Origin: Deltaproteobacteria bacterium
Lineage (GTDB): Bacteria > Desulfobacterota > Binatia > UBA12015
NCBI GenBank assembly: GCA_016874795.1
Contig: VGTG01000053.1
Span: 1-33,590 of the forward strand
Direction: 5' to 3'
Length of the DNA: 33,590 nt
Within the stretch, counting starts at the first letter, position 1, and the number at the start of each line of letters is the position of its first letter. Below are positions 11,239-20,923 of this stretch, piece by piece. The notes below the pieces were generated by a model that was given only the letters and a program-made list of their open reading frames with translations, did no database searches and was not told the DNA's origin. A program made the position numbers and the translations under genes.

Positions 11239-11250
11239 GCTCAAACAAAG

Positions 11251-11281
11251 AAAGGGCCCCGGGAAGGTCCCGAGGCCCTTT
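11251..11281 (-). terminator. Intrinsic terminator of the DUF1329 operon
   Basis: AAAGGGCC and GGCCCTTT form the outer stem with GGG/CCC inside it. Read leftwards, the stem is followed by a U-rich run (TTTCTTTGTTT). It lies 54 bp past the stop of the DUF1329 gene, the last gene of the minus-strand operon. Confidence 0.8.
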
Positions 11282-11334
11282 CGTGGGAGTTGCGGGGCTC
11301 GGCCCCGCCCGACGCGGATCTCGAGCCGCTAGTG

Positions 11335-12642
11335 CTAGTCGCTCAAGCGCGAGAGCGCGCGCAGCGAGAAGTGACCCGGATCGAAGTTCCGCTCGATGAA
11401 CTGTCCCTGGTAGCGACCACCGAGCGCAGCGCGATCGGTCTTGTCGTTGACGCCCATCACCATGTTGGGCGTCGCGGCGCCGAAGCTGCCGTCCCCGCTC
11501 TTCGACCAGTGGTAGCTGCACATGGCCGTGTAGAAGTACTCACCGGCACGGTTGTGCACGTTCTTCCAGTAGATGCGGCTCATCTCCTTGTCGATGTACA
11601 TCACGACCTTGCCGAAGTTGTAGTACGGATCGGTCGACTCGCCCTCGACGACCCACACGGGCCGCTCGACGAGGACGAGGTTGTCGGTGATCTGCCAGGG
11701 CGCGCCCTCGTTGCCCGGCGTCTCGTAGCCGCCGCGGAGGTACGGAATGTTCACCTCGTACTTGGTGTCGCCCGCCTTCTCCTGCTCGAGAGCGTAGGGA
11801 CCGACGATCGCGCCGAGGATCTTCTGCTCGCCGACGAGCTTCCACTTGTAGTACTCGACCTTGCCCGCGTAGCAGTTCAGGTCGTCCGAGAAGATGTCGA
11901 GGCCCGCGATCGGGTCCGAGCGGGTGGCCGCGTTCACGCGACGCGCGCGGCGCATCTGGGGGAGATACGCCCAGATGTTGTCCTGCGAATCCCAGTCGTT
12001 GAGCTGCTGCGCGAGGATGTTCACGCCCTCGGCGTCGGCCGGCTCCATGGCGTGCGACATCGTCGTGCCACGCAGGTTCTCGGGATTCTCTTCCGCCTTC
12101 TCGGTGCGGCCCATGTACGACTGCGCGTGCAGCCACAGCTTGATGCGGCGGAACTCGCCGTTCCGGTCGATGCCGTTCAGCGTGAACGTCGCGCCCTGCC
12201 CTTCACCGATCTGATTCGCGAGATAGAAGTTCCACGCGACCTTGCACGCGGCCTGCGGGTCCTTCGGATCGATGCGCGGGAACGGCTGACCGAAGACGTG
12301 ATCGGGAAGCTCGCCGTTCTCCTTCAGCTTGAGACCGCACGTCTCGGCGTCGAGCTCGTACTTGCCCTCGTTCGCTTCCGAAGCGGCCCAGTACGCCGAC
12401 GTGTAGTTCTCCTTGAACTTCTGCTCGTCGACCGGAACGACGGTGAACGTGTAGTCACCCGCCTTGACGCGCTTCAAAACCGGATCGGGCAGCAAGCCCT
12501 CGGCCTTCTGCCAGTTGTCCTTGTTGAGCTTCCACGCGCCTTCCGGCAGCGGCGCGCCACCCTCGGCGCCCACGGAGAGCGTCGGTAGCGCGAGCGCCGC
12601 GACCACGAGTGCGGTGCGTACGAACGATCGGCGAACATGCAT
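11335..12642 (-). CDS. DUF1329 periplasmic protein
   Basis: This 435-aa protein has a signal peptide (residues 1-26, ending LPTLSVGAEG) and the features of the DUF1329 family, a LolA/LolB-like lipid-binding fold. Examples are WNFYLANQIGEGQG, QDNIWAYLPQMRRARRVNAATRSDPIAGLD and the DLNCYAGKVEYYKWKLVGEQ block. The length is typical. I chose the ATG at 12642, ten bases after GGGAGG, because the upstream frame carries no homology and the signal peptide starts here. In other bacteria DUF1329 proteins are usually encoded with DUF1302 barrels, YCF48 propellers and RND exporters. Here the same partners occur, but the exporter is a Gld-type ABC module. A role in carrying a hydrophobic molecule through the periplasm is inferred from that context. 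It is the last gene of the operon and is followed by a terminator. Confidence 0.88.
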   Translation of the reverse strand: MHVRRSFVRTALVVAALALPTLSVGAEGGAPLPEGAWKLNKDNWQKAEGLLPDPVLKRVKAGDYTFTVVPVDEQKFKENYTSAYWAASEANEGKYELDAETCGLKLKENGELPDHVFGQPFPRIDPKDPQAACKVAWNFYLANQIGEGQGATFTLNGIDRNGEFRRIKLWLHAQSYMGRTEKAEENPENLRGTTMSHAMEPADAEGVNILAQQLNDWDSQDNIWAYLPQMRRARRVNAATRSDPIAGLDIFSDDLNCYAGKVEYYKWKLVGEQKILGAIVGPYALEQEKAGDTKYEVNIPYLRGGYETPGNEGAPWQITDNLVLVERPVWVVEGESTDPYYNFGKVVMYIDKEMSRIYWKNVHNRAGEYFYTAMCSYHWSKSGDGSFGAATPNMVMGVNDKTDRAALGGRYQGQFIERNFDPGHFSLRALSRLSD

Positions 12643-12740
12643 GCGTCGGTACCTCCCTTTCGGATTCAATCCCTGATCTCTGCCAGGGTCAATCTCTGTT
12701 CGGACTTGGAACCGTCCGTTCGGACGATGGAAGCGGCGCG

Positions 12741-13340
12741 TCACTCGGATGCCTCGTGACTCGCCAAAGCAGCAAGCTTGTCGATTTCGAGCAGGAGGAC
12801 CGCCCCGACGAGGACGACCTGCCCCCCAGGCATTATCTCAACGTAGACTCCCGTCAAAGGGGGATTACGCCCACCGATCCGAAGCTGGATCTGTTCGCCT
12901 TCGGTGCGATGCAGCGTGACGAGATCGCGCGCCGGCGCGAGACCGAAGTCCGCCAGCGGCACCTCCGCGCTCGACCCGATCTCGGCGAGCGGCGGAAGCT
13001 CGGCGAAGCTCGCAAGGAACTCCTCGACGCGATCGTCCGGCACGGGCTCCGTGCGATCCGCTTCCTGGATGTCCCAGGCGCTCCCGCTCCGAACCAGGCG
13101 AAATTCCTTTCGCCCCCTCTCGACGTCGATTGCGTCGAAGTCGGACGGCGGGAAGTCGATCAGCGGTCGCGCCTCGGTCTGTCGCTTCGGCGCCTCGATC
13201 CTCGGGAGCGCCACGGCGAACACGAAGGCCCCGAGTGCCGCAGCGAGCACGGCCATCCCGAGAAGCAGCCATCGCCTCGAGGCGAACGGCGCGTCCGTCG
13301 ACCCGTGCCCGCGCGACCCGTGCGACGCGTGCACGGTCAT
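12741..13340 (-). CDS. DUF4340 membrane-anchored protein
   Basis: This 199-aa protein has one transmembrane helix near the N terminus (residues 23-45, WLLLGMAVLAAALGAFVFAV). An extracytoplasmic domain follows with the DUF4340 pattern of paired strands: DFDAIDVERGRKEFRLVRSG, then a WDI segment and DDRVEEFLASFAELP. It ends with a beta-rich piece, RTEGEQIQLRIGGRNP. DUF4340 proteins commonly follow GldG-type genes, and here the ATG overlaps the GldG stop as ATGA, so the two are translationally coupled. It is shorter than many family members, which often carry two copies of the domain. It presumably anchors or gates the extracytoplasmic part of the ABC module; the molecular role is unknown. Confidence 0.8.
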   Translation of the reverse strand: MTVHASHGSRGHGSTDAPFASRRWLLLGMAVLAAALGAFVFAVALPRIEAPKRQTEARPLIDFPPSDFDAIDVERGRKEFRLVRSGSAWDIQEADRTEPVPDDRVEEFLASFAELPPLAEIGSSAEVPLADFGLAPARDLVTLHRTEGEQIQLRIGGRNPPLTGVYVEIMPGGQVVLVGAVLLLEIDKLAALASHEASE

Positions 13341-14725
13341 CCCGCGCTTCGCGTCCGCCGGCGCCATCCGACGAAGACCCCGAAGAGGAGCACCGAAGCC
13401 GGGAGGAGGACCACCGAGGTCCAGAACAGGACCCGCGCCTCCTCGGCCGTCAGGTAGATGCGCGAGAAGGTTCCACCCTGCGGGCCGCTCTGGCGAACGG
13501 CGATCAGGCTCTCGGCGCGCGCCGCGAGATGGGCCATGTTCAGGAACAGATCCTTGTTTCCGAGCTGTCCCGAGTAGAGATTCGTCGCGAAGCTCGCGTC
13601 GCCGACGACCACGATCGAGCCGCCCGTGTCCTCCTTCTCCTTGCCCTTCTCGCCGACGCGCACGTGCGCGATCGCCGCGACCGGGACCGGGCCGACACGA
13701 TCGCCCTCCTGGAACTCCGGACGTTCCGTTTCGACGCTGCTGCGGTCCGTGTCGACCCACGTGTCCGCGCCGGTGAAGGCGAGCGGGGCGTTCTCGACGT
13801 CCGCGCGCTCGGGCCGCTCGACGCTCATCGACTGCGCGAGCGGTAGGACCGCGGGCGGCGCTCCCGTGTAGGGCAGGATCTCCTCGTTGAAGTAGGCCAC
13901 CTGCGGGGCGAAGCTGTCCGCGAAGAAGAGCCGGTTCCGCTCGTCGACCACGAGGTCGTTCCCCGGCACGACCCCGAGCTCGCGCACCAGCGCCTGGACC
14001 TTCGGCGGAGCGTTCGCCTCGAGAAGGATCAGCGCACCGCCGCCGGCATTCAGATAGCGCCGCACGACCTCGATTTCGCTATCCGTGAAATCGGTGCGCG
14101 GACCGGCGATCACGAGCAGAGCGACGCCTGGAGAGATCTCGGTGCGGAGGTCGCTCGAGCGCTCGATCCGGTAGCTCTCGGCCTCGAGATCCTTGGCGAC
14201 GAGCGAGAGACCGCGGCGCTCGTCCGGATCCTGCGGATCGCTCTCGCCGTGGCCGACGGTGAAGAGCGCCTTCCGCTCGACCCCCTCGATCAGCTTGATC
14301 AGGTTCGCCGTGAGACCGCTCTCGTCGAGGTTGCGCACGACGAGCACCCGGTCCGCACCCTCGATCACCGCGGTGTCGTAGTTCGCGATGCCGTAGCGAT
14401 TCGCGAGGAGCGGGCTTCGATCGAGGTCGTACATCTTGAACTGCAGATGCGACGATTCGCGCTGGAACCGCTGCAGAAGCTCCTTGATCTCGCGGACGCG
14501 GCCCTGCTCGCGGCTGTTGTAGAACGCCGTGATCGTGACGTCCTTCTCGAGCCGGCCCGCCGTCCGTCGCGCCTGATCGGAGAGCGTGTGCTCCTTGTCG
14601 GGCGTGAGGTCGAGTCCGACGTTGTAGGCGAAAGCGATCGCGAGCAGCATCACGCCGATCACGACCGCGAGAGACATCTCGACGGCCAGCGCCGCGACGT
14701 GCCAGCGCGCGCCCGAGGGGATCAA
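13337..14725 (-). CDS. GldG-like auxiliary subunit of an ABC transporter
   Basis: The protein (about 462 aa) has a transmembrane helix at each end (MSLAVVIGVMLLAIAFAY and VLFWTSVVLLPASVLLFGVFVGW). A large extracytoplasmic domain lies between them, with the GldG-family pattern LTPDKEHTLSDQARRTAGRL, VTITAFYNSREQGR, LFTVGHGESDPQD and GGGALILLEANAPP. This family accompanies ABC ATPases and permeases first studied in Flavobacterium gliding. I start at the TTG at 14725, which overlaps the permease stop and has a G-rich stretch before it; an in-frame GTG at 14740 would add five residues. The stop overlaps the DUF4340 start (ATGA). The hydrolase-like domain probably senses or binds the substrate outside the membrane; its ligand is unknown. 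Confidence 0.85.
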   Translation of the reverse strand: MIPSGARWHVAALAVEMSLAVVIGVMLLAIAFAYNVGLDLTPDKEHTLSDQARRTAGRLEKDVTITAFYNSREQGRVREIKELLQRFQRESSHLQFKMYDLDRSPLLANRYGIANYDTAVIEGADRVLVVRNLDESGLTANLIKLIEGVERKALFTVGHGESDPQDPDERRGLSLVAKDLEAESYRIERSSDLRTEISPGVALLVIAGPRTDFTDSEIEVVRRYLNAGGGALILLEANAPPKVQALVRELGVVPGNDLVVDERNRLFFADSFAPQVAYFNEEILPYTGAPPAVLPLAQSMSVERPERADVENAPLAFTGADTWVDTDRSSVETERPEFQEGDRVGPVPVAAIAHVRVGEKGKEKEDTGGSIVVVGDASFATNLYSGQLGNKDLFLNMAHLAARAESLIAVRQSGPQGGTFSRIYLTAEEARVLFWTSVVLLPASVLLFGVFVGWRRRTRSAG

Positions 14726-15465
14726 ACCACCCCCCGCCACGCGCGGCTCTGCAGCGACCGGAGCCCCGCGTACAGGAAGAACAGCGTGAAGAGAGCGAAG
14801 TACGCGAGATCGGCGGTCTGGATGCTGCCGGTCGCGAAGCTGTAGTAGTGGTCGAAGAGGGAAAGAAGGAGCAGCACGCGCACGATCCACTCGCTGCCCA
14901 CCGCTTCGTTCCAGGTCATGAACCAGAAGAAGACGAGGATCCCGTAGGTCACCATCGCGGCGACGACCTGGTTCTCCGTCAGGGTCGACGCGGCGAGACC
15001 GCAAGCGATGAAGGCGGTGCCGAGCAGCAGAAGCCCGAGAAAACCCGCGGTCGGCGGGCCGAGCGCGAACGGGTGGTACACGTAGAAGACCGCGAACGGG
15101 ATCATCGCCAGCACGAGCGTCACCAGGAAGAAGCCCCATGCCGCGAGGAACTTGCCGAGGATGAGCTGGTAGTCCCGAACGGGCAGCGTCCACAACAGCT
15201 CGATCGTGCCGAGCTTCCGCTCCTCGGCGAAGAGACGCATCGTCACGAGCGGAAGAACGAGCAGCGTCACGAGCCGGAAGTCGATGAACACGTACCGCCA
15301 CAGCCCCGTCTCGAGGACCTGCGCACCGAACGTCACGAAGAAGGCGACGTCGCTGTAGAAGAAGTATCCGGAGAGCGTCAAGTAGACGGCGAGCAGGACG
15401 TACGCCGTCGGCGAGCCGAAGTACGCGGCGAACTCGCGCCGCGCGATCGCACGAACGGCGCGCAC
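14722..15465 (-). CDS. GldF-like ABC transporter permease
   Basis: This 247-aa membrane protein has about six hydrophobic helices. It begins with the ABC-2 permease pattern AIARREFAAYFGSPTAYVLLAVYL. An EERKLGTIELLWTLPVRDYQLILGKFLAAW stretch follows, the usual cytoplasmic coupling motif of GldF and related permeases. The GTG start at 15465 lies two bases after the ATPase stop, and the last codons overlap the GldG start. The three genes therefore form one translationally coupled ABC module. The family exports or moves substrates not yet identified in most bacteria. The neighbouring outer-membrane and periplasmic genes suggest an envelope route rather than gliding itself. Confidence 0.87.
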   Translation of the reverse strand: MRAVRAIARREFAAYFGSPTAYVLLAVYLTLSGYFFYSDVAFFVTFGAQVLETGLWRYVFIDFRLVTLLVLPLVTMRLFAEERKLGTIELLWTLPVRDYQLILGKFLAAWGFFLVTLVLAMIPFAVFYVYHPFALGPPTAGFLGLLLLGTAFIACGLAASTLTENQVVAAMVTYGILVFFWFMTWNEAVGSEWIVRVLLLLSLFDHYYSFATGSIQTADLAYFALFTLFFLYAGLRSLQSRAWRGVV

Positions 15466-15467
15466 GG

Positions 15468-16538
15468 CTAGTGCACCTCCCCGGCTGGCGCAGCTGGCGG
15501 CCCGCTCCGCGAAGCGCCGCCGTTCGCACGTCGATCGCCTTCTCCGCCGACCAGCGCGAGGAAGATCTCCTCGAGCGTCATGACGACCGGCCGGAGCTCG
15601 ATCAGCCCCGCTTCGCTCCCCACGGCGGTCGCCGCGATCTCCCGTCGCATGTCGAAGCCGTGCTCGACGCGCACGATCACCTCGGTCCCGTCGGCGGCCG
15701 AGGAATGCGGGACCGACAGCGGATCCCGCTCGCGGCTGGCGACCTCGGCGACGTGCGGCAGCGCGCCGATCTTCGCGAGCACGTCCGGCGTCGGCATCGC
15801 GAGCCGGACCGAGTACTCGCGAAACGGACGAAGACGGCGCTCGAGGTTCGCCGGCTCGTCGACGGCGAGGATCCGTCCGCCCGCGAGGATGATCACGCGC
15901 GAGCAGATCATCTCGACCTCGGGGAGGATGTGTGTCGACAGCACGACCGTGCGCTTCTCGTCGCCGAGTGCACGGATCAGCGCGCGGATCTCGCTCACCT
16001 GCTCGGGATCGAGGCCCGACGTCGGCTCGTCCAGGATGAGGACCGGCGGATCGCCGAGAACCGCTTGCGCGATCCCGACGCGCTGCCGGTAGCCCTTCGA
16101 GAGGTTGCCGACGAGCCGATGTGCGACGTGCTCGATCCCGGCCGCGGCCATCGAGCGGCCGACCGCACGTGCCACCTCGCGATGCGGGATCTGCTTCATG
16201 TCGGCGACGAAGCGCAGATAGTCCTCGACGGCCATGTCGCCGTAGAGCGAGGTTCGCTCGGGCAGATAGCCGACCGCGCTCCGTGCGTGGATCGCTTCGC
16301 GGACGACGTCGTGCCCCGCAATCGTGCAGCGTCCCGAGCTCGGCGGAAAGACGCCGGTGATCATCCGGAGCGTCGTGCTCTTCCCGGCGCCGTTCGGTCC
16401 GAGGAAGCCGATCACCTCGCCGCGCGCGACCTCGAACGAGACGTCGCGGACGGCGATCGTCGCGCCGAACGCCTTCTGCAGGTGCTCGGCGCAGATCTCG
16501 CCGGCTCCGGAAGCTGTGATCGATCGCGGCGAGCCCAC
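15468..16538 (-). CDS. GldA/CcmA-type ABC transporter ATPase
   Basis: This 356-aa ABC ATPase has Walker A GPNGAGKST (residues 47-55), a signature LSKGYRQRVG and Walker B PPVLILDEPTSGLDPEQ. The switch His lies in VLSTHILPEVEMIC. The roughly 100-residue C-terminal extension after the nucleotide domain is typical of GldA and drug-type single-domain ATPases. GTG at 16538 is the only usable start before homology begins. The gene lies 69 bp after the YCF48 gene and two bases before the permease. With the permease and the GldG-like protein it makes a complete transporter that works at the inner membrane by ATP hydrolysis. The substrate is not evident. Confidence 0.92.
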   Translation of the reverse strand: MGSPRSITASGAGEICAEHLQKAFGATIAVRDVSFEVARGEVIGFLGPNGAGKSTTLRMITGVFPPSSGRCTIAGHDVVREAIHARSAVGYLPERTSLYGDMAVEDYLRFVADMKQIPHREVARAVGRSMAAAGIEHVAHRLVGNLSKGYRQRVGIAQAVLGDPPVLILDEPTSGLDPEQVSEIRALIRALGDEKRTVVLSTHILPEVEMICSRVIILAGGRILAVDEPANLERRLRPFREYSVRLAMPTPDVLAKIGALPHVAEVASRERDPLSVPHSSAADGTEVIVRVEHGFDMRREIAATAVGSEAGLIELRPVVMTLEEIFLALVGGEGDRRANGGASRSGPPAAPAGEVH

Positions 16539-16607
16539 CTGCGGCCAAACCTTCCGCGTCTCGCGGAACTCCGCAAGCGCAACCGGGCGAGTGGTCGGTC
16601 GGGCTGG

Positions 16608-17654
16608 CTATCCGCCGTGCTCGACGACCCGCTTGTCGGCGGTCGGGCCGCCGAGAAGCGTCGCCTGGTCTCCCTCGGTCTTGTAGAGCAGGCCCGCGCC
16701 GCCGACGATGTAGCCGGTCGTACCGGACAGGCTCAGCCCGCGGAACCACTCGGAGGCGAACTGGATCGGCGTCGGGAACGCCGTCCAGGTCTTGCCGTCG
16801 TCCTTGCTGCTGAGGAGCGTGCCGCGGCTGCCGACGATCCAGCCGATGCCGTCGGAGAATCCGACGTCGTAGTAGGAGAGCTCCTGGAACGGCGAGCGCA
16901 CCGGGTTCCAGGTCGCGCCGCCGTCCTCGGTCATCAGGATCGTGCTGTCGATGCCGACGGCGACACCGTGCTGGGGAGTCGTGAAGCTGATGCCGAAGAG
17001 CGTGCTCTCGACGCCGGACTGCTGCTGGCGCCACGTCTTGCCGCCGTCGTCCGTGGCGAGGATCGTCCCGAACTCTCCGCAAACCCAGGCGTGATCGGCG
17101 TCGAGATAGTTCAGGCCGTAGAGAAGCGCGTCGTCCGGCGCGATGCCCATGTCGAGAGCGGAGTCCGGCAGCTTGAAGTCCTCGGGGAGGTGCACCTGGG
17201 TCCAGGTCGCTCCGCCGTCCTCGGTGTGGACGATCTGGCCGAAGTCGCCGACGGCCGTTCCGCGGTTCTGGTTGGCGAACCGGACCTGGAGGAAGTTGCG
17301 GTCGACCGGAGTCTTCTGCTCCTTCCAGGTCGTTCCGCCGTCCGTCGAGGCGTAGATCGTCCCCTGCGTCGAGGCCACCCAGACGTGGGTCTCGTCCGCG
17401 CAGGTGACGCTGAAGTAGGGTTTCCTTCCGGACGGCTCCTGGCGCGTCCAGCTCTTGCCCCCGTCGTCCGTGCGGAAGACTCGACCGAGGTCGCCCACGA
17501 CCCAGCCGACGTTCGGGTTGGCGAAGCAGGCGCCGAAGAGGTTCACGCGAATGTCGGTCGGCGGAACCGTTTCCGCCACCGCGCGGGACGCGAGCGCCCC
17601 GCCGAAGATCAAGAGTCCGACCGCAAGGAGCGCGGCGGAACGTACGGGCCTCAT
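16608..17654 (-). CDS. YCF48/BNR-type secreted beta-propeller protein
   Basis: This 348-aa protein has a signal peptide (to about residue 27, SRAVAE) and at least six propeller repeats marked by DDGGKSWT, DGGTTWKE, DGGATWTQ, DDGGKTWR, DGGATWNP and DDGKTWTA. A degenerate seventh near the C terminus fits a seven-bladed propeller. These blades resemble the photosystem II assembly factor YCF48/Hcf136, but there is no photosynthesis here. In many heterotrophs such propellers are encoded beside DUF1302 and DUF1329 proteins, as in this operon. The ATG at 17654 follows a GGAAGGA site and lies 27 bp after the DUF1302 stop. It is probably a periplasmic scaffold that assembles or bridges the outer-membrane and transport components; that role is inferred. 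Confidence 0.88.
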   Translation of the reverse strand: MRPVRSAALLAVGLLIFGGALASRAVAETVPPTDIRVNLFGACFANPNVGWVVGDLGRVFRTDDGGKSWTRQEPSGRKPYFSVTCADETHVWVASTQGTIYASTDGGTTWKEQKTPVDRNFLQVRFANQNRGTAVGDFGQIVHTEDGGATWTQVHLPEDFKLPDSALDMGIAPDDALLYGLNYLDADHAWVCGEFGTILATDDGGKTWRQQQSGVESTLFGISFTTPQHGVAVGIDSTILMTEDGGATWNPVRSPFQELSYYDVGFSDGIGWIVGSRGTLLSSKDDGKTWTAFPTPIQFASEWFRGLSLSGTTGYIVGGAGLLYKTEGDQATLLGGPTADKRVVEHGG

Positions 17655-17681
17655 TGAGCTGATTCCTTCCCGTCCTCTCGA

Positions 17682-19448
17682 CTAGAGCACGTACTCGATC
17701 TGCAAGCGGACGTTGCTGCGGTCGCGCACGAGACCGAACTGATACTTGTACACGCCCGAATTGATCGCAGAGTAATCGATGATGAAGCGCCACGGATCAC
17801 GCGCGAACCGCACGCTCGGCTGGAACACGAACATTCCCTGCCAGTCGAAGAACATGCCGAATCCGGGCGTCGTCTGCACGGTCAGGTCGGTGAAGGGGAT
17901 GTCGTTGTTGTAGGTCGTGTTGATCAGGAGCGTCTGCAGGTAGCCGTCCTGCGCCAGCCCGACGACGCGGGTCGAGTTGTTCGGCTGCGGGATCGGGACC
18001 GACTGGCAAGGCACGCCGAACGAGCACTCGTCGTAGTTGAAGATGTGCCGGTAGAAGAACTGGGTCGAGAACAGGAAGGACTGCGCCGGGTTCAGTGCGC
18101 GGATGTACTGGTTCATGTCCCAGCCGACGACGAAGTTCAGCGTGTCCTTCCGGCTGACCGTGTCCAGGGTTCCCCCGAGGACCGGACCGAGGAAGTTCGC
18201 CACGTAGTTCCCGTCGAGCGGTGAGCCCCCGATCCTCGGGAACGCGCTCGCGACCGGCCCCTTGAAGAGCGCTTCGTTGCGGAACCACGCGATCTCGCTC
18301 CGGAGGACGCCCTTCAGCTGCGGGAACGCGGTCGTCATGGCCGCGCCGTTGATCCACACGCGCGGTGCCGTCGATTCGGCCGTGATCGTGCTGACGCCCT
18401 GATGGAAGTTCGGGTCGGTCGGCAGCGAGCCGCGGAAGTGCACGGCCTGCGTGTCGAGCATCGTCACGTAGCTCGCCGCCGTGAACGTGTAGTCCGAAAC
18501 GTTGAACACGAAGCGGCCACCGCCGCGGAGGCTCGAGGGACTCGTCGGCGGCGCGTCTAGAATCTGCAAGGTCCGGCCGGTCGGCGGGCCGAGCGGGTTC
18601 GCCCACGGTGAGCCGTTCGGCGCGCCCGGGATGAAGGCGACGGTGTTGTCGTAGGCGAGGTAGCCCTCGAAGAAGGCCTGATCGATCACGCCGCCGACGC
18701 CGCCGATGAAGTAGCTGCCGCGGAGCATATTGAGCGGCACGCGCCGCTCGTCGAGATCGACGAAGAATCCGCCGAAGCTGTTGTCGATCGGGTTGATGTT
18801 GTCGAGGAGACGGAAGACGTCGGTCTCACCCCAGACCAGGTTCTGGCGGCCGAAGCGGACGAACAGGTCGCCGAACTCCATGTCGACGAAAGCCTGGAAG
18901 AGCCGATTCCGGTACGTCGCGACCTGACGCAGGCGGTGCCGGTTGAAGTAGGTGATGCTCGGAATGAACTCGAGCTGGCCCGGAGCGAAGGTCGGGCTCT
19001 GCTTCAGGAACGCCGTGAGCTCTTGCTGGGACTCGAACGCGTTCTTGTAGACGCTGGGACCGTAGTCGTAGATGCCTTCGTACTCCCCCCGGTAGTTCAG
19101 GGTGTACTCCAAGGTGGTCATCCAGTCGGGAGTCCACTTCTCGACGAGCGGGAGAAGGTCGTGATCCCACTCGACGTCGAGGAAGTACCGGTTCTGCAGG
19201 ATGTTGCCCGCTGCCGAGTAGGGGAAGGTGCCACCGAAGTCGCATGGCGCGCCCGGCTCGCACGTGTCTTCGCCCTTCGTCGACTGCTTGGCCATCGTGC
19301 CGATGCGCAGGTTGACGTAAGCGCGCATGCTCACGTTGATCGAACCGTCGTCCGTCAACGGGATCGCGTCGGATCTCCCCGGCGCGAAGATCAGCGTCAA
19401 AGCCCCAAACAGGATTGCGAGCCGCCACCTTGCTCGTTTAGGCAACAT
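17682..19448 (-). CDS. DUF1302 outer-membrane beta-barrel protein
   Basis: This 588-aa protein is of the DUF1302 family. It has a signal peptide (residues 1-27, ending APGRSDA) and then a long alternation of short amphipathic strands. Family marks include LFVRFGRQNLVWGETDVFRLLDNINPIDNSFGGFFVDLDERRVPL and the C-terminal aromatic-bounded strand RSNVRLQIEYVL, the usual insertion signal of barrels. I chose the ATG at 19448 because the signal peptide starts there and a GAGGGGG precedes it. It is the first gene of the operon and would be the outer-membrane component. DUF1302 proteins usually occur with DUF1329 and RND transporters in pathways handling hydrophobic compounds; the substrate here is unknown. 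Confidence 0.87.
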   Translation of the reverse strand: MLPKRARWRLAILFGALTLIFAPGRSDAIPLTDDGSINVSMRAYVNLRIGTMAKQSTKGEDTCEPGAPCDFGGTFPYSAAGNILQNRYFLDVEWDHDLLPLVEKWTPDWMTTLEYTLNYRGEYEGIYDYGPSVYKNAFESQQELTAFLKQSPTFAPGQLEFIPSITYFNRHRLRQVATYRNRLFQAFVDMEFGDLFVRFGRQNLVWGETDVFRLLDNINPIDNSFGGFFVDLDERRVPLNMLRGSYFIGGVGGVIDQAFFEGYLAYDNTVAFIPGAPNGSPWANPLGPPTGRTLQILDAPPTSPSSLRGGGRFVFNVSDYTFTAASYVTMLDTQAVHFRGSLPTDPNFHQGVSTITAESTAPRVWINGAAMTTAFPQLKGVLRSEIAWFRNEALFKGPVASAFPRIGGSPLDGNYVANFLGPVLGGTLDTVSRKDTLNFVVGWDMNQYIRALNPAQSFLFSTQFFYRHIFNYDECSFGVPCQSVPIPQPNNSTRVVGLAQDGYLQTLLINTTYNNDIPFTDLTVQTTPGFGMFFDWQGMFVFQPSVRFARDPWRFIIDYSAINSGVYKYQFGLVRDRSNVRLQIEYVL

Positions 19449-19531: not shown

Positions 19532-19561
19532 GTTCTATGCCCTCTCGATCGGTTGTGTCAA
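19532..19561 (-). promoter_or_regulatory. Sigma70-like promoter of the DUF1302 operon
   Basis: Read on the minus strand, a perfect TTGACA (19561-19556) is followed after 18 bp by TAGAAC (19537-19532). Transcription would start near 19525, leaving a leader of about 77 nt before the DUF1302 ATG. It lies in the 251-bp gap shared with the divergent haem-porin gene. Confidence 0.5.
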
Positions 19562-19699: not shown

Positions 19700-20923
19700 A
19701 TGGTCGTTCAGAGACGCGGGTGGCGTGGCGGCAGGAAGGCGCTGGGGTTCACCCTCGCGCTCGTCACGCTCGTAGCGTGCGCCGCCACGACGGCCCGAGG
19801 CGAGCCGTACATGGCCATCCGCGAGGGCCGCAAGTGTGGGACCTGTCACGTGAACATGACGGGTGGCGGCATGCGGACCCTGCTCGCCAACACCCACATG
19901 CAGGAGATCACGCACTACCGCGACATCTTTCCCCAGCTCGACGAAGCCGCCGAGGTCTGGAACGGGCAGATCACGAGCTTCTTCTCGATCGGCGGCGACC
20001 TTCGCCTCGACGACTCGATCGTCTTCCAGGACGAGCCCGACGCGGAGGGTCAGGTCCCGCACAAGGCGTTCCGCGGGAACGTGGACGAGAACATCCTCGA
20101 CGTCCGCGAGTTCGCGACCTACTTCGACTTCAAGCTCGTCGAAGACTACCTCGACGTCTACGTCGACGTGAACTGGCTCCCGGGGAGTCCAGTGGCGCGC
20201 GAGGCCTTCGGTCTGCTGAAGGGCGTCCTGCCATGGCGAGGCTACGTGATCGCCGGCCGATTCTTGCTGGACTACGGCCTCAAGATGGAGACCGACAACC
20301 TGTTCAGCATCAACACGAGCTCGCAGGACATGTTCGTGCGCGGGCGCACCGGGACGTCGTTCACCGGGTACGACCAGGGCCTCGAGATCGGCTTCGAGCC
20401 CGGGCCGTTTCATCTGACGACGTCGGTGACGAACGCGGCTTCGGGAGACGCTACCGTGCGCGTGACGAGCAACGGCTACGGGGTCTTCCGCGACTTGCCC
20501 GTGATCGACAACGCGATGCTCGGCGCTTCGTTCATGTACGCGGCGCCGACCGGACAGGATCAGTTCATCTGGGGCTTCTACGGCGGCGCGAACCTCGGGC
20601 CGCTCGAGTACCAGGTGGAGGTCGACTGGATCCACCAGGCGATCGACGACCAGCCGAACTCCGTCGGGACGTTCCTGGCGTACGGGGAGCTGAACTACCT
20701 GCTGCTCGACTGGATGAACACGAAGGCGTTCGGCGAGTATGCGGACAACGACGGACAGCTCGGTCGAACGAACACGGCGCAGAACCGATTCGGGTTCGGG
20801 ATCGAGCCCTTCCTGGGGCGTTTTCTGCAGACTCGGCTGTTCTACTCGATCGCCAACGGTCCAAAGGACCTCGCCATCTCGAACCAGAACCGCCTCGTGA
20901 TGGAAATTCATTTGTTCTTCTAA
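19700..20923 (+). CDS. Monohaem cytochrome-porin-like outer-membrane protein
   Basis: This 407-aa protein starts at the ATG at 19700, ten bases after GAAGAGGAG. An export signal covers residues 1-34. LVAC at 24-27 could alternatively be a lipobox. A single c-type haem site, CGTCH (residues 46-50), follows in the context REGRKCGTCHVNMTGGGMR. From about residue 90 the rest has the alternating strand pattern of a beta-barrel (GYVIAGRFLLDYGLKMET, FTGYDQGLEIGFEPGPFHL, RLVMEIHLFF) and ends in Phe. The layout recalls fused cytochrome-porins such as Cyc2 of iron oxidisers, but the barrel sequence is not recognisably Cyc2. A role in electron transfer across the outer membrane is inference. It diverges from the DUF1302 operon, and its stop codon lies at the edge of a long palindrome. 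Confidence 0.75.
   Translation: MVVQRRGWRGGRKALGFTLALVTLVACAATTARGEPYMAIREGRKCGTCHVNMTGGGMRTLLANTHMQEITHYRDIFPQLDEAAEVWNGQITSFFSIGGDLRLDDSIVFQDEPDAEGQVPHKAFRGNVDENILDVREFATYFDFKLVEDYLDVYVDVNWLPGSPVAREAFGLLKGVLPWRGYVIAGRFLLDYGLKMETDNLFSINTSSQDMFVRGRTGTSFTGYDQGLEIGFEPGPFHLTTSVTNAASGDATVRVTSNGYGVFRDLPVIDNAMLGASFMYAAPTGQDQFIWGFYGGANLGPLEYQVEVDWIHQAIDDQPNSVGTFLAYGELNYLLLDWMNTKAFGEYADNDGQLGRTNTAQNRFGFGIEPFLGRFLQTRLFYSIANGPKDLAISNQNRLVMEIHLFF

Follow-up and report, generated by a model that had tools for sequence, protein, structure and literature searches.

The window, by which we mean the whole 33,590-nucleotide stretch analysed here, is one contig (C53; VGTG01000053.1) in the 6.27-Mb draft genome of a Deltaproteobacteria bacterium of the Binatia lineage (GCA_016874795.1; 360 contigs, 96.7% complete). 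Open reading frames combined with Pfam matches place an envelope operon on its minus strand in the order DUF1302, YCF48, GldA, GldF, GldG, DUF4340 and DUF1329 (Table 1), in agreement with an earlier note on this DNA that had named the seven genes and given their coordinates. The GldA, GldF, GldG and DUF4340 genes form an ATP-binding cassette (ABC) module. For comparison with other systems, we take YCF48-type and COG4447-type proteins to be one group. The gap between DUF1302 and YCF48 is 27 nt in length, followed by 69 nt between YCF48 and GldA and 2 nt between GldA and GldF, while GldF/GldG and GldG/DUF4340 are joined by stop/start overlaps and 98 nt separate DUF4340 from DUF1329. The spacing is operon-like, and the ABC genes overlap or nearly touch, as the note had described them. 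The ATP-binding motifs of GldA (GPNGAGKS, LSKGYRQR and VLILDEP), read directly from the sequence, are intact. The note had also given the operon a promoter at one end and a terminator at the other. A terminator-like hairpin does lie 3' of DUF1329, with five such sites in the scanned region versus 3.9 expected from shuffles. The promoter was not confirmed: a scan reported no promoter-like site, and the candidate found by direct reading pairs a perfect TTGACA (19561-19556) with a second hexamer, CATAGA, that is poor.

Table 1. Features of the envelope operon in the window, in the direction of transcription
Feature	Position	Strand	Basis
Weak promoter-like site (TTGACA, 16 nt, CATAGA)	19534-19561	-	Direct reading
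DUF1302 outer-membrane barrel (AmeA-like)	17682-19448	-	PF06980 1.2e-16; N terminus signal peptide-like by eye
YCF48-type propeller (AmeC-like)	16608-17654	-	PF14870 2e-38
Spacer of 69 nt, probable scar of RND (AmeD-like) gene	16539-16607	-	Spacer alignment to relatives
ABC ATPase, GldA-like	15468-16538	-	PF00005 8.2e-32
ABC-2 permease, GldF-like	14722-15465	-	PF12679 1.8e-9; start set from alignment
GldG-like subunit	13337-14725	-	PF09822 2.1e-20; TTG start inferred
DUF4340 protein	12741-13340	-	PF14238 3.6e-6
DUF1329/LolA-like periplasmic protein (AmeB-like)	11335-12642	-	PF07044 2.5e-31, PF17131 9.1e-14
Intrinsic-terminator-like hairpin, 3' of DUF1329	11250-11282	-	15-pair stem and T-tail

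The operon resembles AmeABCD of Castellaniella defragrans, a four-gene system that consists of DUF1302, DUF1329, a COG4447-type protein and a resistance-nodulation-division (RND) pump and acts as an exporter of hydrophobic compounds; its deletion lowered monoterpene tolerance and raised Nile Red accumulation in uncoupled cells (PMC6394551; statements on this and the other papers refer to the accessible part of each source). Three of these components are found in the window operon, namely DUF1302 (PF06980), a DUF1329/LolA-like protein (PF07044) and, as the presumed COG4447 counterpart, the YCF48 propeller (PF14870). The fourth, the RND gene, is present in the operon of nine relatives and at a second site in the window genome but is absent from the window operon, so that the window by itself does not count as a full AmeABCD cassette. 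A further difference from AmeABCD is the embedded ABC-2 module with GldG and DUF4340. We consider it likely that the window holds an Ame-type envelope transport operon of Candidatus Binatia into which an ABC module has been built and from which the RND gene has disappeared, with ABC and RND cooperating on a hydrophobic substrate. This reading draws on the gene content, the gene order in relatives, the spacer between YCF48 and GldA, a solitary RND gene elsewhere in the genome and the recurrent linkage of Ame and ABC genes.

A search with the window DUF1329 matched 72 of 98 genomes, counting that of the window, at 1e-20 or better, and gene order was read in 40 stretches around the best matches by profiles built from the loci themselves, with gene calls in most fetched stretches coming from a home-made caller. 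The same-family sample comprises 13 other genomes, all of which are accounted for. Seven carry the order DUF1302-YCF48-RND(MMPL)-GldA-GldF-GldG-DUF4340-DUF1329, and their DUF1302 copies at the same operon position share 59-68% identity with that of the window. YCF48-RND-GldA is visible in an eighth (G009), and a ninth (G003) shows DUF1302-YCF48-RND before its contig ends. The contigs of G007 and G013 begin at or inside GldA, so the RND position there is unreadable, and G008 and G012 (63% complete) gave no DUF1329, operon-type GldF or such RND at the thresholds used. The results showed that an RND gene lies between YCF48 and GldA in all eight same-family genomes whose contigs span the site, leaving the window genome as the only readable one without it. 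The seven genes, with RND added, keep this order in seven other genomes of the family, which argues that the operon goes beyond chance. The placement of the ABC module between the propeller and DUF1329, as reported in the note, is likewise kept in relatives, where RND lies before GldA. No other readable genome shows the seven-gene order without RND, which reads as a derived exception arising from a local rearrangement. In a concatenated tree, the remaining operon genes of the window group with those of G001/G002 and G011/G007 (100/100). One record titled Klebsiella pneumoniae (L090) also carries the whole eight-gene operon and a second of the same title (L100) carries Binatia-type GldAFG genes; the organism names given to these metagenome bins look mistaken.

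To the RND-GldA spacer of G001, the 69-nt window spacer aligned with a score of 52, with 200 shuffles giving a mean of 28.7 and a maximum of 48. The score was marginal for the corresponding spacer of G002 (44.5 versus a shuffle maximum of 44.0), no match was obtained with that of the more distant G005 (34.5 versus 43.5), and none with the YCF48-RND spacers of G001 and G002. The window spacer is probably the scar of a lost RND gene. When the operon RND of G001 was used as query, eight matches appeared in the window genome at E 0.001, the best of them on contig C8 (G000, 42184-44631) with 74% identity over residues 1-800 of 812. This protein keeps 247 of the 249 columns that are invariant in 24 other rows (leave-one-out range for those 24, 96.1 to 100%), and the 19.9-kb stretch around its gene contains no DUF1302, YCF48 or DUF1329. 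For both the G001 operon RND and the C8 RND, the best model is that of HAE3 RND proteins (TIGR00921), reached with 128.9 and 125.4 bits, respectively, under a cut-off of 351.9; the HpnN hopanoid transporter model (TIGR03480, cut-off 751.85) gave 63.5 and 63.4 bits. In a tree of 16 RND proteins, the C8 RND falls inside the clade of the family's operon RNDs (100/100) and adjoins G005 (96/97). Forcing it to join the genus mates G001 and G002 lowered the log-likelihood by 30.35 and was rejected by the approximately unbiased (AU) test (p 0.003); this tree and one further analysis omitted short or low-scoring RND matches, and the latter also omitted three loci repeating others. M3 peptidase and class III CoA-transferase genes are adjacent in G001 and G002, with no RND between them, and on C8 a short-chain dehydrogenase gene and the RND gene sit between the same two.

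Outright loss of RND from the genome was rejected upon finding the operon-type RND on C8, and a simple move of the native gene is poorly supported given the AU result. Import from a G005-like relative combined with loss of the native RND fits better, as judged from the tree, although a moved native gene may instead have evolved fast. In either case the RND is present, conserved and out of place, through import plus loss or through a move with fast evolution. A donor site was not seen in the comparison, which covered G005 and G006: apart from the M3 peptidase itself, the stretches around that gene in these two genomes have none of the listed C8 neighbours. The C8 insert and the spacer were also scanned for flanking repeats and insertion-sequence ends, and only imperfect or short repeats turned up, none of them telling. 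Could the RND gene have been dropped from the contig during assembly? A draft of 360 contigs would allow it, but both flanking frames are intact with the deletion at gene boundaries, the spacer resembles the one between RND and GldA in G001, and the genome has one intact same-clade RND at a second site among neighbours conserved in G001 and G002, making such an artefact very unlikely.

On the reading suggested by the note, the ABC module would stand in for an RND exporter. Replacement of RND by ABC in the window species, giving an ATP-driven route from the inner to the outer membrane, would account for an operon that has ABC and no RND, and for remaining operon genes that are not decaying (the window end branch measures 0.21 in the concatenated tree). 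However, RND is found with ABC in the operons of all eight spanning relatives, and the intact operon-clade RND on C8 retains nearly every invariant column, so we regard replacement as quite improbable; the operon looks like one in which ABC took over, but the absence of RND that gives this impression is a local rearrangement. A split set at work also has precedent in Pseudomonas putida, where a DUF1302/DUF1329 pair shares phenotypes with a pair made up of a periplasmic protein and an efflux transporter at distant locus tags (PP_0765/PP_0766/PP_2018/PP_2019; PMC10866462). DUF1302 and DUF1329 work there with a periplasmic protein and a transporter at distant locus tags, as may be the case in the window genome, whereas the accessible part of that source describes no ABC module, and the P. 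putida transporter has an adjacent partner gene, unlike the solitary RND of the window genome.

The union of the DUF1302/YCF48/DUF1329 set with the GldAFG/DUF4340 set, proposed in the note, is conserved in relatives and recurs in several gene orders. An alignment scan of named genomes with GldF yielded 25 loci, most of them titled Deltaproteobacteria or Candidatus Binatia and some 'bacterium', 'Proteobacteria' or 'Alphaproteobacteria', with Aminicenantes and Bacillota as the lowest three (34-40% identity). Among the GldF matches listed, 32 of 150 have a listed RND match no more than 8 kb away on the same strand, against about 0.6 expected by a simple estimate (5-Mb genome, uniform placement, best 150 matches of each list); six lower-scoring RND matches were added to the RND list, and five of the 32 depend on them (27 of 150 without). 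These linked pairs come from 25 genomes of families f1, f3, f5 and f8, with RND upstream in 27 pairs. The window GldF is outside the 32 because its RND is elsewhere in the genome. In family f8 (7 genomes in the sample), RND or DUF1329 genes occur in the same contig stretch as the ABC module in six, one of which (G020) has two tandem RND genes in an otherwise identical order, and the seventh (G045, L109) has its ABC genes alone on a 3.8-kb contig.

Other orders were also found: YCF48-RND-(RND or DUF1302)-GldAFG-DUF4340, followed in some by DUF1302 (L098, L120, L145, L147); YCF48-RND-GldAFG-DUF4340, followed by DUF1329 in L122 and L123, with L133 also having DUF1329 and no YCF48 seen; and RND-DUF1329-GldAFG-DUF4340-(DUF1302 or DUF1329)-YCF48-RND in L141, L142, L149 and, in part, L148. 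For L122 and L142, seven proteins are backed by Pfam matches. Ame-linked loci thus show at least four gene orders and fall into three clades of a GldA+GldF+GldG tree, one of which holds the last two orders, and the linked or alone state changes at least 3 times on quick trees with an unsure root. In these trees, of which the larger holds 46 loci chosen from those at hand, 'alone' refers to about 10 kb checked on each side, with shorter stretches where contigs end (as for L091 and L121), and L109 was scored as linked by kinship. Taken together, the sequence comparisons suggest that the Ame system and the GldAFG/DUF4340 module are repeatedly united in Candidatus Binatia. Several GldF relatives at about 170-180 bits (G030:C79, G050:C34 and G037:C16 among them) have one in-frame stop codon within the match, which may only mark an alignment running upstream of the start. 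As a look beyond Binatia, plasmid records gave RND matches in 49 (15 listed) and GldG matches in 2, and two of the RND plasmid records (Aromatoleum, Methylibium) list no ABC genes beside their Ame genes in a gene table that is incomplete. A search of the open-access literature, with subscription journals and preprints outside it, found no report of the union, and the words DUF1302, DUF1329 and RND are absent from the accessible part of the Binatota genome paper (PMC8262859).

Several observations weigh against an Ame operon with a built-in ABC module and a displaced RND. Among the relatives only G001 gives a clear spacer match, the assembly at hand is a draft in 360 contigs, and the C8 RND groups with G005 rather than with its genus mates and may be an imported copy instead of the moved original, perhaps with another task. 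In G032, a member of family f8, the roughly 12 kb that precede YCF48 showed no DUF1302. Eleven genomes (f7, f11, f13, f15) have a DUF1302-YCF48-RND-DUF1329 operon without ABC, and the nine of these that were checked around their closest ABC module showed no Ame gene there, some stretches being cut by contig ends. Given that such ABC-free operons exist in 11 genomes of the class, not every Ame system requires ABC. The nine genomes that keep a related module alone and their Ame operon elsewhere would also suit a passenger, that is, a separate envelope transporter sharing a transcript but not a substrate with the Ame genes. Repeated rearrangement would be expected to part a passenger from the Ame genes, however, and the excess of linked pairs over expectation together with linkage in three ABC-module clades under changing gene order makes this explanation unlikely. 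The same recurrence of the Ame and ABC combination argues that ABC probably works alongside RND rather than in its place.

The three core ABC proteins each find their best NCBIfam match among the gliding-motility proteins, but they fall far under the curated cut-offs (GldA, 260.1 bits against TIGR03522 with a cut-off of 402.6; GldF, 119.1 against TIGR03518 with 288.5; GldG, 39.6 against its gliding-motility model with 389.85). None of the three reaches the level of a gliding equivalog, and the window module further differs in being Ame-linked and followed by DUF4340. With an ATPase, an ABC-2 permease and a PF09822 subunit side by side, it is an ABC-2 transporter with a GldG-type auxiliary subunit. 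The GldG model (mean predicted local distance difference test, pLDDT, 82.6) shows thioredoxin-like and GIFT domains flanked by two terminal membrane helices, with sequence matches to thioredoxin-like and IFT52 proteins and a fold match to the IFT52 N-terminal domain (1.2e-11). DUF4340 is modelled (pLDDT 88.6) as a single N-terminal helix, presumably membrane-spanning, and an alpha/beta domain that would be periplasmic. Foldseek found no PDB match for the DUF4340 model at E 0.001 or better, and a sequence search of the PDB gave nothing up to E 1. A lipid-binding fold is not claimed for DUF4340, as its best Z in a second comparison (6.9 over 101 residues) is within the 'common' range of the tool. 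We know of no substrate assigned to a GldAFG/DUF4340 module outside Bacteroidetes.

We propose that an ABC-2 module of GldA, GldF, GldG and DUF4340 was inserted between the RND and DUF1329 genes of an Ame operon, and that in the window species the RND gene later went from the operon, leaving a short spacer, with a same-clade RND alone on another contig. The proton-driven RND and the ATP-driven ABC would act on one hydrophobic substrate or take consecutive steps in moving it. The side of ABC that faces the periplasm would be made up of GldG and DUF4340, DUF1329 could carry the molecule across the periplasm, YCF48 may help assembly and DUF1302 would be the exit, or entry, at the outer membrane. 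A complete route from inner to outer membrane for a hydrophobic substrate, as envisaged in the note, would then be in place. More tentatively, and with somewhat less than an even chance in our estimate, this would be a single envelope route with two energy sources, recurrent in Candidatus Binatia, in which RND and the GldAFG/DUF4340 ABC feed the same DUF1329 carrier and DUF1302 barrel. An acyl-CoA dehydrogenase gene directly follows the YCF48-RND-GldAFG-DUF4340-DUF1329 cluster of L122 (13064-14197), and the Ame genes of the Aromatoleum plasmid lie among beta-oxidation genes; together these neighbours point to acyl or hydrocarbon compounds as possible substrates.

Further Ame-like sets occur in the window genome. 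The note had held that a gene order confined to this genome with independent promoters, or an RND gene accompanying DUF1302/DUF1329 elsewhere in the same genome, would speak against its proposal. Both were found in part, the first as to the order without RND among readable genomes, the second on contig C70 (L014, 4436-10432), which has an RND (MMPL) gene next to a divergent DUF1302. This set, which also includes a LolA-like gene and a fatty-acid desaturase, appears to be a third envelope lipid cluster. A DUF1302-DUF1329 pair with no RND beside it (C185, L011, 1152-4485) and a YCF48-RND pair without DUF1302 (C13, L073, 8351-11860) possibly form a second split Ame set. In the window itself, a gene divergent from DUF1302 (19700-20923, plus strand) encodes a secreted-looking protein with a CGTCH haem-like motif and no Pfam match, and a homologue occupies the same position in the same-family stretches L024, L026 and L027.

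Clusters of DUF1302, DUF1329, YCF48 and RND genes occur in hydrocarbon degraders (PMC6394551, PMC13101534). Among them, the 'Nanopod' cluster of the benzene-degrading ORM2a likewise brings together a porin-like protein, DUF1329, YCF48 and an MMPL transporter, whereas its accessible description lists, in place of any ABC gene, one gene for a universal stress protein and one hypothetical gene (PMC13101534). The recurrent union in one lineage offers each module a candidate partner, with the claim that ABC and RND would share a substrate. If the composite reading is true, the window species would represent a natural experiment in which the two halves have been unlinked by the displaced RND gene.

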